Assembly (NCBI GenBank): GCA_947454055.1
Contig: CANGIS010000007.1
Coordinates: 1-64,000, forward strand
DNA length: 64,000 nucleotides
Source of the DNA: Hyphomicrobiales bacterium
GTDB taxonomy: Bacteria > Pseudomonadota > Alphaproteobacteria > Rhizobiales > Beijerinckiaceae
Reading direction: 5' to 3'
In this document: in pieces, positions 55,437-63,945 of the stretch
How positions within the stretch are numbered: position 1 is the first letter of the stretch
How the letters are laid out: every line of letters starts with the position of its first letter
Program-made: the position numbers and the translations under genes
The notes under the pieces: model-generated
The model's input: the letters and a program-made list of their open reading frames with translations, nothing else
What the model was told of the DNA's origin: nothing
Databases searched by the model: none

Positions 55437-55685
55437 TCAACTCCCATCAGCATGGTCGGGAAAGGCGGCCATCAAGGCCGCAAGGGTCGAGCGGTCCGGT
55501 GGCCCCGCCACGTGGCTCAGCGGTCGCGGCAGAGCGGCGGCCAATTCGCGCGGCGTCATGGTCCAGAACGCCTGAGAAGATAGCCGCAGGACACCGAAGC
55601 CGAAGCGCATCGCTTCGTCCCAGGGAAAGGCGCGCGGGTGGGCGGACGCGCCTTTGCCCTCCCCTCCGGATCCTGCGGCGATCAG
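55437..55685 (-). CDS. Tail assembly chaperone, second frame (RcGTA g10.1 type), probably made by -1 frameshift
   Basis: The conserved part reads FPWDEAMRFGFGVLRLSSQ followed by AFWTMTPRELAAAL, a Phage_TAC-type chaperone of ~60 residues. No ATG, GTG or TTG lies in frame between the g10 stop at 55682 and an ATG at 55610 that is already inside the conserved block. The frame is open upstream across the g10 end, and entry from g10 by a -1 slip at 55685-55691 would give a 192-residue fusion with a Gly-rich linker (IAAGSGGEGKGAS). Independent starts at ATG 55610 or ATG 55754 are the alternatives. A GGAGGGGAGGG tract at 55667-55657 has no start codon at useful spacing. Confidence 0.7.
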   Translation of the reverse strand: MIAAGSGGEGKGASAHPRAFPWDEAMRFGFGVLRLSSQAFWTMTPRELAAALPRPLSHVAGPPDRSTLAALMAAFPDHADGS

Positions 55686-55691
55686 GGGTTT
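55682..55691 (-). promoter_or_regulatory. Candidate -1 ribosomal frameshift site in tail chaperone genes
   Basis: The heptamer A AAC CCC (zero-frame codons AAC CCC, minus strand 55691-55685) fits the X XXY YYZ slippery pattern and is followed at once by the UGA stop of g10. GAGG at 55705-55702 lies exactly 10 bases upstream, the spacing of the stimulatory Shine-Dalgarno sequence in dnaX frameshifting. After the slip the -1 frame codes AAA CCC CUG and continues into g10.1. Confidence 0.55.
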
Positions 55692-56014
55692 GGCGGCACG
55701 TCCTCGCTTTGTCCAAAACTGGCGTGCAGCAACCGCGCGGCAATCGCAGCCCATTGCCCGACGCCACCCTCGATCTTGAGCGCTGCCACCTCGTCATCGG
55801 AGAGCGTTTCGCCTGCCCCCCGAAGGCCGGCACCGATCAGCGCAATAAGATCGCCAGCCGATAACCGCCCTTTGGCAAAGCGGGCGCCCAACTCGGTCAG
55901 GTCCGCCGCATGGAGCCGGTGTTCGAGCTCCGCAAGGGCTCCCAAGGTCAGGCACAAAACCCGTCTTTTGCCCTCGATCTCGGCTTCAATTTCGCCCCGT
56001 CTTGCATTGGCCAT
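55682..56014 (-). CDS. GTA gp10 / tail assembly chaperone, first frame
   Basis: A 110-residue protein from ATG 56014 with GGGAGGG 4 bases upstream; a longer in-frame ATG at 56050 lacks this. It reads NARRGEIEAEIEGKRRVLCL then TLGALAELEHRL, the GTA gp10 (former DUF3356) family. It stands in the position of lambda gpG between the major tail protein and the tape measure, so it probably coats the tape-measure protein during tail assembly. It ends in PPNP at the slippery site that may join it to the next frame. Confidence 0.88.
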   Translation of the reverse strand: MANARRGEIEAEIEGKRRVLCLTLGALAELEHRLHAADLTELGARFAKGRLSAGDLIALIGAGLRGAGETLSDDEVAALKIEGGVGQWAAIAARLLHASFGQSEDVPPNP

Positions 56015-57797: not shown

Positions 57798-57847
57798 GGG
57801 TTGAACTTCCTTCTGGTGATCGCGCGCAAGGCTTGATAAAAGCCTCC

Positions 57848-58579
57848 ATGCGCTCAAAATTATGGTCCTTGCTTGCAGCCTCAGGCGCTGCGTTCCTGAT
57901 CGCGACCCGCGTGGCCTTAGCCGTCGTCAACGGGCAGGATGACCCGTCGCTGGCGCGCTATGCGGTGATGGTGCTGGATGACCACGGCAATATGTGCACC
58001 GGCGCCGTCGTGACCCAGCAAGCCATCCTCACCGCCGCCCATTGCGTCACCGACGGCAAGGATTGGCGGATCTTCTGGCGCGGCCCCGACAATGCGCCGG
58101 TGCTGGTCAAGCCCCTTACCGTCCGCGTCCATCCCGGCTTTGTTCACAATACCCACGGGTCGCAAAACCGTTCGATCGATCTGGCGATCGTTACCCTCGA
58201 CGAGCCGCTGCCCACCCTCTTTGCGCCGATACCGCTATCGGACGACATAAGGCTCGCACCGGGCGATCCGGTCAGCGTGGCGGGATACGGCTTTTCCGAG
58301 GAGAAAAACCGCAAGACGCTTGGCACCATGCGCCGCGCCGATCTCGCGGTGATCGAGCCTTTCGGCCATAGCACCGTTCTGGTCTGGCTTTCCGATCCCG
58401 CCCAGTCGGGCGCAGGAGGATGCCAGGGTGATAGCGGTGGCCCGTTGCTCTATCAGGGGGCCTTGATCGCGATCACCTTCGAGACGACGGGGAACGGCAA
58501 ACGCGATTGCGGGGTTCTGACACAAGGCACGCTCATCGCCCCGCACCGCGACTGGATTTTGAAGTCGATGGCACCTTAG
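57848..58579 (+). CDS. Secreted trypsin-like serine protease, antisense inside the GTA cluster
   Basis: A 243-residue S1 protease on the strand opposite to all other cluster genes. ATG 57848 starts a signal peptide (SLLAASGAAFLIATRVALAV). The mature N-terminus VVNGQDDPSLARYAVMV resembles an activated trypsin. The catalytic triad is visible as TAAHC, RSIDLAIVTL and CQGDSGGPLL. Cysteines suit the usual disulfides. It ends 4 bases into the capsid stop (58576-58579) and starts 50 bases from divergent g6. A trypsin gene is not part of the R. capsulatus GTA. Target and function are unknown. Confidence 0.9.
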   Translation: MRSKLWSLLAASGAAFLIATRVALAVVNGQDDPSLARYAVMVLDDHGNMCTGAVVTQQAILTAAHCVTDGKDWRIFWRGPDNAPVLVKPLTVRVHPGFVHNTHGSQNRSIDLAIVTLDEPLPTLFAPIPLSDDIRLAPGDPVSVAGYGFSEEKNRKTLGTMRRADLAVIEPFGHSTVLVWLSDPAQSGAGGCQGDSGGPLLYQGALIAITFETTGNGKRDCGVLTQGTLIAPHRDWILKSMAP

Positions 58580-62106: not shown

Positions 62107-62613
62107 TCACATCGCCCTTCGCCCGCGTTGCACGGCTCGCGCTAGGGCTGCGGCCACTTGCGCTTCCGAGCGTTTGAAGCTTTCGGCATCTTGCGCATGG
62201 ATCGTGACATGCACGGTCGAGCCGCCCTGCCCGGCAAGGCCAAGTTTGCCATCGGCCCCGCGCGAGAGCGGCATGATCGCTTCCGGACCCGCCTCGCCGG
62301 CCAATGCGGTACCGCCGTCGGTGCGGAAATAGCTCGGCGCGGCGATAACCCCGCCATCGGCAAAGGGCGTCACGGATCCAAAAATAGATTGCGTCGCCCC
62401 CGACAGCATCGAGCCCAGATCGGGTACCGCCGATTTGGCCGCCAGATCGAGCAATTTGGCGCCCACCGATTGCAAGATCTGGTCAAAGCTTTTGCCTTGT
62501 ACCGCCCCCTTGGCAAACGCATCGGAAATCGCCGTGCCGAAACTGCCCGCCGCCTGGTTGAGGCTATCCAGCGCGCTGGCCGTTGACCCGAAACCATTCG
62601 ATCTGCTGGTCAT
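62107..62613 (-). CDS. Tail tape-measure protein (RcGTA g11 type), short and relocated
   Basis: A 168-residue protein from ATG 62613; GTG 62640 would add nine residues. The C-terminal half is diagnostic: VTPFADGGVIAAPSYFRTDG, GEAGPEAIMPLSRGADGKLG. The N-terminal half is a short helical stretch (LNQAAGSFGTAISDAFAKGA). The R. capsulatus g11 protein has about 219 residues, so this one lacks some 50 residues of ruler. It lies upstream of the portal instead of between the chaperones and DUF2460. Other tape-measure genes are absent from the window. Confidence 0.8.
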   Translation of the reverse strand: MTSRSNGFGSTASALDSLNQAAGSFGTAISDAFAKGAVQGKSFDQILQSVGAKLLDLAAKSAVPDLGSMLSGATQSIFGSVTPFADGGVIAAPSYFRTDGGTALAGEAGPEAIMPLSRGADGKLGLAGQGGSTVHVTIHAQDAESFKRSEAQVAAALARAVQRGRRAM

Positions 62614-62649
62614 TCCTTTACCCCCTTTCGCAGGCCCCACGCGGCCGCA

Positions 62650-63945
62650 TCACGCATAAATCAGCGAGCCCGAGATATCGTTGACCGCCAATCCCGCAGC
62701 GGTCGCGTCGGTCAATCCCTTGGCACCGGTGACGGCGAAGGTAAGGGCTGTTGAAAAGCCGATACCGCCCTCAAAGCCCATGAAGGCCGAGCCACCGGCA
62801 GGAAGATCGATCTCGAACAGCGCCGGCGTCGTCCCCAGCGTCACGCCCGTTGTCAGCGCATTCCAGAATTTCACCGAGCGCAACGAAGTCGCCGAGTTTT
62901 GCAGCATCACACCGAGCAACCGGCCAGCCGCCGCCTTGACTGCTATCGCGACAGGCAAAGCGGGCGACATCACGGCCGCGACGCTCGCTGCCCCCGCACT
63001 GGAGGGCCGGTATTGCATCCCGATATCGCCGACGAGATTGGCTCCGTTTGTGATCGCCACATTGGTCGCGCCAACAGGGGCCGAATAGACCCACGGCACG
63101 CCCTGCGCGGCCCGCATCGTGACGGCCACCAAGCCGCTGGTAAAAGCGAGCGTGGCGACGCGGATCTGGCTGCATCCCGCACACAAGACAAACCAGGTGC
63201 TGGGCGTGGTTGCCGAGGTTTGCGGATAGGTGTTGGGAACGCCGCCAACCACCTGCGCCTGAAGCGCAAACCAGTTGACGCCGTCCAAAGTGCCAAAAAA
63301 GCCGAGCGTCGCGGTAAAGGTGCCGCGCAGATCCACAATCGCGCCATTCGCGCCGTTGAGCGTGAGGGCCACGGCACCACCCAAAGCCGTAATCGATCCC
63401 GAGGTCGCCACCGCGGGATGACTGACCGGCACGGTTTGATCGGACGCAATGGTGACGGCGACCGAGCCGCTGGTCGGCTGCGCGCCCAAAGCGGGCAGAT
63501 TGGCAACCGTCACCTTCATGCCCGCCGCTGCCGAGCCAGGCGCTCGGTCATAGCCCGTGCCATTCCAGAGCATCGGCACATCGGCAGCAAGACCGGTCGC
63601 GACCATGCCGTCACCTGCAACCGCCCGCTTGCGGTCCAGCGTGCCGGACCCGTTCAGCAGTTGGTCGACGCCGCCGGTCATCAACCCGTAAGAGGTCGCC
63701 CCCAGCACCTGATTATCGGCATTGTGGAACGCCTGCACCAGCGAGCCATTGCCACTCACGGGGTCGACCAGAACCACGCGCGAGGCCTGCCCCGCACCGG
63801 TTGCCACCGTGGTATTGGCAGCGCCCGTTCCGCCCGTACCGGCGCTCCCGTTGGCGTTATAGACGACCTCGGCCACCGTCCCGTCGCCCATGTCCTTCAG
63901 GCGCTTGTTAACGCCGGATAAGACGTTCATCAAAATATCGGCCAT
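62650..63945 (-). CDS. 431-residue phage-like structural protein of unknown role
   Basis: ATG 63945 has AAGGAG 9 bases upstream. The protein begins ILMNVLSGVNKRLKDMGDGT, a start seen in phage tail or decoration proteins. It continues as a Gly/Ala/Thr/Val-rich beta-structured chain with almost no charged residues. A strand set around residues 205-250 (DLRGTFTATLGFFGTLDGV) resembles the beta-sandwich of carbohydrate-contact domains in tail proteins. It has no counterpart in the R. capsulatus GTA cluster that I recognise. It lies 36 bases upstream of the tape-measure ATG in the same operon. Confidence 0.6.
   Translation of the reverse strand: MADILMNVLSGVNKRLKDMGDGTVAEVVYNANGSAGTGGTGAANTTVATGAGQASRVVLVDPVSGNGSLVQAFHNADNQVLGATSYGLMTGGVDQLLNGSGTLDRKRAVAGDGMVATGLAADVPMLWNGTGYDRAPGSAAAGMKVTVANLPALGAQPTSGSVAVTIASDQTVPVSHPAVATSGSITALGGAVALTLNGANGAIVDLRGTFTATLGFFGTLDGVNWFALQAQVVGGVPNTYPQTSATTPSTWFVLCAGCSQIRVATLAFTSGLVAVTMRAAQGVPWVYSAPVGATNVAITNGANLVGDIGMQYRPSSAGAASVAAVMSPALPVAIAVKAAAGRLLGVMLQNSATSLRSVKFWNALTTGVTLGTTPALFEIDLPAGGSAFMGFEGGIGFSTALTFAVTGAKGLTDATAAGLAVNDISGSLIYA

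Follow-up and report, generated by a model that had tools for sequence, protein, structure and literature searches.

The tail assembly chaperone genes g10 and g10.1 of a gene transfer agent (GTA) locus from a Hyphomicrobiales bacterium very probably constitute a programmed -1 ribosomal frameshift unit, as judged from the sequence of the locus and of its relatives. The stretch of DNA analysed (the window; 64,000 nt, positions 1 to 64,000 of contig CANGIS010000007.1) carries the unit on its minus strand (Table 1). The frameshift, which was the core of the original prediction, is supported by a slip site found in register in relatives, by an anticorrelation of start codons and slip sites, and by a covarying RNA helix; by analogy, we judge the unit to be a putative GTA variant of the phage gpG/gpGT scheme.

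Table 1. Features of the predicted frameshift unit in the window.
Feature	Position	Strand	Remarks
g10, tail assembly chaperone 1, 0 frame	55682..56014	-	110 codons + TGA; PF11836, E 1.5e-27
g10.1, tail assembly chaperone 2, -1 frame, C-terminal part of predicted fusion	55437..55685	-	PF09550 block from about 55628
Slippery heptamer A AAC CCC	55685..55691	-	AAACCC[CT] in register in 129/253 loci, 0 in other registers
g10 stop TGA, immediately 3' of heptamer; first 3 nt of the 5-nt spacer	55682..55684	-	
GAGG, Shine-Dalgarno-like, 10 nt 5' of heptamer	55702..55705	-	SD-like tetramers enriched there in relatives
5' arm of predicted stimulatory RNA helix: GCCGCAGGAT, then CCGGAG in the window fold	55664..55679	-	5 nt past heptamer; covariation
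3' arm of predicted helix: CTTCGG, bulged T, GTCCTGCGGC	55583..55599	-	within G-F-G-V-L-R-L codons of g10.1
Whole frameshift unit	55437..56014	-	110-aa short product and 192-aa fusion, both predicted

The gene cluster in the window comprises portal, protease, capsid, connector, tail, hub and GTA_TIM genes (PF13547, E 3.1e-130), and a terminase gene is located on the same contig just beyond the window (66154-66774); given this head-tail gene set and the nearby terminase, the cluster is, by its genes, an RcGTA-type locus. The tail genes are ordered PF06199 (tail tube), PF11836 and PF09550, followed at once by a PF09343 gene; g10 matches PF11836 (Phage_TAC_11), and g10.1 matches PF09550 (Phage_TAC_6; E 5.2e-17) as well as TIGR02216 ('rcc01693 family'). 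Hallmarks of gpG/gpGT-type systems are represented by two adjacent TAC-family ORFs 3' of the major tail protein gene, the second of which is in the -1 frame, is open past the end of the first, and has no start of its own near its conserved block. A gene for a trypsin-like serine protease (PF00089, E 1.8e-22) is found on the opposite strand (57833-58579, plus), between the GTA major capsid and head-tail connector genes.

The heptamer AAACCCC, read as A AAC CCC, and the directly following TGA were confirmed to the base, as were a first frame of 110 codons from the ATG at 56014, a spacing of exactly 10 nt (ACGTGCCGCC) between GAGG and heptamer, a -1 frame open across the heptamer (55793 to 55437), and a predicted fusion of 192 aa with the junction ...VPPNP-LIAAG.... 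Also correct was the claim that no ATG, GTG or TTG occurs between the stop and ATG 55610, which lies inside the conserved block of g10.1. Between the point where the -1 frame opens and 90 nt beyond the heptamer start, the NTG codons are ATG 55754, CTG 55685 (overlapping the g10 stop), and ATG 55610. The first of these was omitted from the original prediction; it lies inside g10, 70 nt before the stop, in the right frame, and opens a 105-aa ORF from which g10.1 might be initiated independently. However, no such codon is present in the other three g10-bearing members of the genus, and the -1 frame of one relative (L055) is open only from AAA CCC onward; the probability of such a start is taken to be next to nil. 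A +1 slippage at CCC UGA, which is a known +1 site according to passages of PMC5009743, was rejected because PF09550 lies in the -1 frame.

Relatives were collected from the family, class and genus of the window genome, with the addition of named genomes and three phage-collection records (276 loci in total); locus lists were used from the best score down, and weak or decayed copies are therefore under-sampled. After removal of one locus without g10.1, two without a usable g10 partner, and 14 duplicates, 259 pairs were retained, of which 253 show g10.1 in -1 relative to g10, three in +1 and three in frame 0. By itself, the -1 relation is little proof of a frameshift, since ATGA and GTGA overlaps also produce it. 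It does bear on the notion that transcriptional slippage, a sequencing error or a pseudogene lies behind the apparent split: such causes do split frames in general, but there is no long homopolymer at the site and the same split recurs in 253/259 pairs, which leaves this explanation a negligible probability.

The slip site is far more frequent in register than in the other registers or in the gene body. Within the overlap, as far as the -1 frame is open, an XXXYYYZ heptamer is found in register in 157/253 loci (15 and 3 in the other two registers), AAACCC[CT] is confined to this register (Table 1), and the motif nnC-CCY is found in register in 208/253 loci (43 and 13 in the others; 45 loci are without it). 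In the body of g10, nnC-CCY is seen at 13 of 18722 codons, and the ratio of CCT to CCC, which is 197:11 at the slip site, is 20:83. A conserved in-register slippery sequence, as in gpG/gpGT-type systems, is hence present, and its commoner part is C-CCY rather than AAA-CCC, which was absent from the original prediction. Where CCT is preceded by CGC, GAC or GTC, re-pairing of both tRNAs is impossible, so what the loci share appears to be a one-base slip of tRNA-Pro on C CCY; the precise slip event is uncertain, because CGC or GAC before CCT rules out re-pairing in the P site. By E. coli rules, A AAC CCC is not a strong shifter.

Slip sites and start codons tend to replace each other. The stretch from 60 nt 5' of the stop to the conserved block is without ATG, GTG or TTG in 97 loci, and nnC-CCY is present in 88 of these, i.e. 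in 62 of the 68 loci whose open stretch is free of starts throughout and in 26 of the 29 with a start only farther upstream, which is the case of the window itself. With a nearby ATG, nnC-CCY is found in 20/46 loci, versus 188/207 without one (Fisher p 1.2e-11, relatedness ignored). Most of the 26 ATG loci without a slip site show ATGA directly before the PFPW motif, and the relatives therefore appear to fall into two main states, frameshift or own start. Between these states, 19 changes were counted by parsimony on a midpoint-rooted tree, in which directions are not trustworthy. ATGA or GTGA takes the place of the slip site in many loci of other families, so the mechanism is not universal among GTAs; in many loci TTG overlaps the g10 stop, and initiation may occur there.

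These overlaps are also what would be expected from translational coupling, by which ribosomes would end at the UGA and restart nearby on g10.1 (at CTG 55685, at ATC, or at the internal ATG 55610). Overlaps of the ATGA, GTGA or TTGA type are found in many relatives, an ATG directly before PFPW is seemingly used in some lineages (e.g. Devosia, Pelagibacterium), CTG overlaps the stop in the window, and one genus member (L068) has an in-frame ATG behind a purine-rich stretch. However, among 98 start-less loci (-60 to block; the boundary is shifted by 6 nt, hence 98 and not 97), 55 are also without CTG and 31 also without ATH codons; a start at the internal ATG would lose PFPW, which is retained in loci with their own ATG; and coupling accounts neither for the anticorrelation of near ATG and slip site nor for in-register heptamers and a helix at fixed distance. 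We therefore regard coupling as improbable for the window, and the programmed frameshift as the reading to be followed.

Upstream of the slip site, SD-like tetramers are found 6-17 nt before the slip in 124/208 loci, compared with 307/2080 in shuffled upstream DNA and 1799/12480 in the gene body; the remaining 84/208 slip loci fail this test, for which the tetramer list did not include the AGGG of L068. A Shine-Dalgarno-like sequence about 10 nt upstream, as in dnaX-type signals, is thus represented, and its stimulatory effect is putative. The spacing of 10 nt between GAGG and heptamer is the one that we take to be that of the stimulatory site of dnaX, in which a 5' Shine-Dalgarno sequence, as implied in PMC5009743, acts as stimulator.

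The strongest evidence for the predicted frameshift is a covarying RNA helix downstream, which was missing from the original prediction. The helix comprises about 10-12 bp, starts 5 nt past the heptamer, and has its 3' arm in the L-R-L codons of g10.1. Its 5' arm contains GCCGCAG at +12 to +18 from the start of AAACCC, which pairs with CTGCGGC in the L-R-L codons; per base, the conservation of GCCGCAG is 84-100% among the 45 loci in which the stop adjoins the heptamer and 78-91% among the 85 loci with the stop elsewhere, and it extends to third codon positions and, in the stop-adjacent group, to bases beyond the g10 stop.

Tests of the helix were performed with the 195 of 208 slip loci in which the domain is at least 30 nt away. 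When the 3' arm was scanned over offsets, offset 42 came out best, with 6.34/7 pairs (permuted 6.13, z 9.6), against 4.09 for the runner-up. Pairs 7, 8 and 9 (numbered from 0; 195 loci) are formed in 82, 83 and 86%, against 54, 55 and 45% expected if the two sides were independent, and RNAalifold, unaided and with 124 loci less than 80% alike, predicted five pairs of the inner part of this helix and nothing else. Over the 12-bp helix, 86.6% of cells are paired (75.3% when shuffled) and 156 are double-changed (58.8 in shuffles); versions of the helix slid along the sequence reach at most 53.7% paired and 73 double-changed cells. On the tree, 31 branch events alter both sides yet keep the pair, compared with 2-9 for slid controls. 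Coincident changes of any kind number 43 versus 11.1 expected, but the slid controls also exceed expectation (16-33 versus 7-15), so only the pair-keeping count is informative.

At least 9 of the 12 pairs can be formed in 162/195 loci, and in 40 of the 43 named loci tested (Rhizobium, Shinella, Brucella/Ochrobactrum, Mesorhizobium and others); by group, this applies to 42/45 loci with AAACCC at the stop, 74/82 with AAACCC upstream of the stop, and 46/68 with another nnC-CCY. In minimum free energy (MFE) folds, at least 8/12 helix pairs are used in 93/124 loci (median z -3.4) and at least five in 97/124; these 97 folds enclose one hairpin loop in 67 loci, two in 29, and three in one. In the 27 loci with an MFE fold without the helix, the 5' arm (at least 5/7 nt) is paired downstream otherwise in 21, in several cases as hairpins from the same position. 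The RNA of the window is predicted to fold into a closed stem, i.e. the helix, with two inner hairpins (-63.1 kcal/mol, z -3.46); in a context of 171 nt the same helix is predicted with a less extreme z of -1.99, and 7 of 200 shuffles fold equally well. A search against Rfam gave no match worth noting (best E 0.43), and no consistent structure was seen downstream in the 13 slip loci in which the domain leaves no room for the helix (z +1.7 to -2.8). In two loci (L164, L196), GCGCATC...GATGCGC occurs just after AAACCCT, and in the predicted fold of L196 this stem at the slip site replaces the long-range helix.

A helix of this kind could instead serve mRNA stability or the control of termination, with an incidental overlap: in the window it adjoins the g10 stop, and RNA function here is predicted from sequence. 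However, the 5' arm lies at a constant +12 from the heptamer with the stop adjacent or farther on, and the helix can be formed in both situations (42/45 and 74/82), which ties its position to the slip site rather than the stop; furthermore, 21 of the 27 loci without the helix in their MFE fold pair the 5' arm downstream in some other way. Such another role of the helix is considered very unlikely, and a stimulator of frameshifting is the preferred reading.

Within the genus, a g10 match was found in 4/12 genomes (4/10 of the most complete), which may reflect loss of the GTA in the others. The proposed check of the heptamer and of GAGG in relatives came out in favour of the frameshift among these four: AAACCC[CT] is kept in three, the fourth (L068) having C CGC CCT, and all four have an SD-like tetramer 10 nt 5' (GAGG in three, AGGG in L068). 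In L102, the -1 frame before the block is without ATG, GTG, TTG or CTG; in L100 and L068, TTG overlaps the stop. Loss of the heptamer in a close relative together with a proper start codon for the second frame, which had been named as evidence against the frameshift, is nearly realised in L068, where A AAC is gone, but where C CCT, AGGG and 11/12 helix pairs are kept. Its in-frame ATG is located behind AGGGCAAGGG, a purine-rich stretch, 35 nt past the stop and still 5' of PFPW; this ATG is a plausible start, and L068 would represent an intermediate between frameshift and own start. The helix itself has changed within the genus, GCCGCAGGA/TCCTGCGGC of the window being GCCGCAGAA/TTCTGCGGC in L100.

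A second sample was analysed with profiles and slip rules frozen; it comprised 88 further loci, the best-scoring among the matches in 128 of 199 sampled genomes of the order, and gave 83 new pairs after two unpaired loci and three duplicates were dropped. Of these pairs, 75 are in -1, four in +1 and four in frame 0. The heptamer is in register in 47/75 (3 and 7 in the other registers) and nnC-CCY in 44/75 (31/75 without it); the latter is also seen out of register, in 20 and 7 loci, which makes it, as the looser motif, less specific in the second sample. Among loci without a near start, 45/47 have the heptamer or nnC-CCY and 34/47 have nnC-CCY alone; the anticorrelation of ATG and slip site was reproduced (p 9e-5). 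The heptamer used by lambda, G GGA AAG, is found directly before the g10 stop in eight loci from two other families of the order (L302, L308, L317, L323, L329, L336, L342, L358). This heptamer is described as highly shift-prone in passages of PMC5009743.

The 3' structure a few nt past the heptamer with covariation, as expected for a frameshift signal, was thus obtained in the first set, whereas the fixed helix was not reproduced in the second sample: in its 25 testable loci, the fixed long-range helix is unsupported (56.3% versus 54.7% expected; permutation, 169 versus a mean of 163.8, sd 6.2). At least 9/12 helix pairs are possible in five loci, and the fold uses the helix in four (L328, L335, L345, L364). 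A stem of at least 6 bp that starts 2-8 nt past the slip is present in 17/25 loci of the second sample (42/125 control positions) and in 125/195 of the first set (325/975 control positions). With 25 loci, this is suggestive of a structure whose position is kept while its pairing partner changes.

From the anatomy of the site, its conservation and its covariation we infer the slippage itself, its rate and the roles of its products, as follows. Most ribosomes would stop at the UGA and yield the 110-aa g10 protein, and some would pause at A AAC CCC UGA, held by the 3' RNA helix 5 nt past the heptamer; pairing of the upstream GAGG with 16S rRNA probably adds to the pause. The tRNA-Pro, with or without the tRNA-Asn, would then re-pair one base back (C CCC to CCC, AAC to AAA), and reading would go on as ...NP-LIAAG... 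into g10.1, giving the 192-aa fusion. If the products act like lambda gpG and gpGT, the tape measure would be coated by the short protein, and the tail tube protein would be recruited by the fusion.

Read jointly, the two samples make it likely that domesticated Hyphomicrobiales GTAs keep a complete frameshift cassette under long-term selection, with a covarying long-range helix as stimulator, one arm of which lies within the codons of the fused domain, and that across relatives the stimulator has been rewired from a long-range helix into a local hairpin, one slip site has been swapped for another (A AAC CCY, nnC CCY, G GGA AAG, TTT CCC T), and a separate start codon has in some cases taken the place of the frameshift. 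If so, nature has run many experiments on the dosage of tail chaperones. A conserved frameshift with a covarying RNA signal would also be independent evidence of selection keeping these GTAs as working machines, and the ATG-bearing lineages offer a direct test of whether tail assembly needs the fusion or just two proteins in a set ratio.

Frameshifts in tail-chaperone genes are established in phages, according to parts of PMC5009743, PMC10885494 and PMC3711429; the phage tail-gene frameshifts of Xu, Hendrix and Duda 2004 are cited in the latter two, and the roles of gpG and gpGT in lambda tails are given in PMC5009743. Like lambda gpG/gpGT, the unit in the window comprises two short ORFs 3' of the tail tube gene, the second in -1, with the slip at the end of the first, and in 142 of the 153 relatives with enough sequence the tape measure gene is next, directly 3' of g10.1. 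It differs from lambda by its slip on A AAC CCY or C CCY, by the covarying 3' helix, by its occurrence in a domesticated GTA, and by its displaced tape measure gene: a tape measure gene directly after g10.1 was found neither in the window nor in L100 and L102 of the same genus, and in the window the g11-like gene (62107-62640, minus) adjoins the portal gene and is not between g10.1 and g12. Upstream of this displaced gene lies an ORF of 431 aa (62650-63945, minus) with no Pfam match. The likeness to lambda gpG/gpT is one of Pfam TAC names and layout, and a profile search of solved structures with g10 gave one chance match (E 0.93).

Other known signals resemble single components. According to sections of PMC5009743, the IS911 signal has a three-way junction and those of other IS elements have a second component 44-104 nt 3'; the predicted fold of the window, a closed stem with two inner hairpins, is similar. 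Unlike the IS elements and dnaX, to which it is not homologous, the signal is located in GTA tail genes, and one arm of its helix is made up of codons of the second protein. The tail assembly chaperone cluster of HK97-like phages, for which parts of PMC3711429 report 6% and 7% frameshifting in reporters, is likewise a case of a tail chaperone fusion made by frameshift; the term 'gene transfer' is absent from the main text of that paper. Tail-chaperone frameshifts are also implied, in parts of PMC8601537, for most of the R. capsulatus phages of that paper.

For GTAs, g10 and g10.1/g10.5 of RcGTA are given as tail chaperone 1 and 2 genes in portions of PMC11409702, in the main text of which 'frameshift' does not occur. 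The genes in the window are of the same families, TIGR02216 being named for rcc01693. Among five distinct loci with Rhodobacteraceae or Roseicyclus titles, four (L072=L197, L198, L200, L201) have ATGA and no nnC-CCY, and the fifth (L199) has neither a near start nor nnC-CCY. In term searches, PMC7296036 contained neither 'frameshift' nor 'chaperone', the main text of PMC10783043 no 'frameshift', and PMC10127595 'frameshift' only in a reference on another gene; in PMC9765227, g10.1 was set aside as a gene of <300 nt. A +1 frameshift proposed for the putative Wolbachia GTA, according to parts of PMC10299305, concerns a hydrolase, i.e. a different gene and direction. The view that a g10/g10.1 frameshift is not on record for GTAs hence held for the literature searched, which covers few subscription papers and others in part, and an earlier mention is possible. 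Tail-chaperone slips are known from phages; what is added here is such a predicted slip in GTA tail genes, with a covarying RNA signal.

The three phage-collection records, L104 (MW091529.1), L105 (MW462191.1) and L106 (MW202777.1), carry relatives of this tail region, with AAACCCT directly before the stop in L104 and L105 and G GGA AAC in L106. In all three, g10.1 is annotated from an internal ATG that omits the PFPW-like motif, its most conserved one, and the predicted fusion protein would therefore be missed wherever annotation starts g10.1 in this way. The 18-kb record of L104 may itself represent a bacterial GTA contig.
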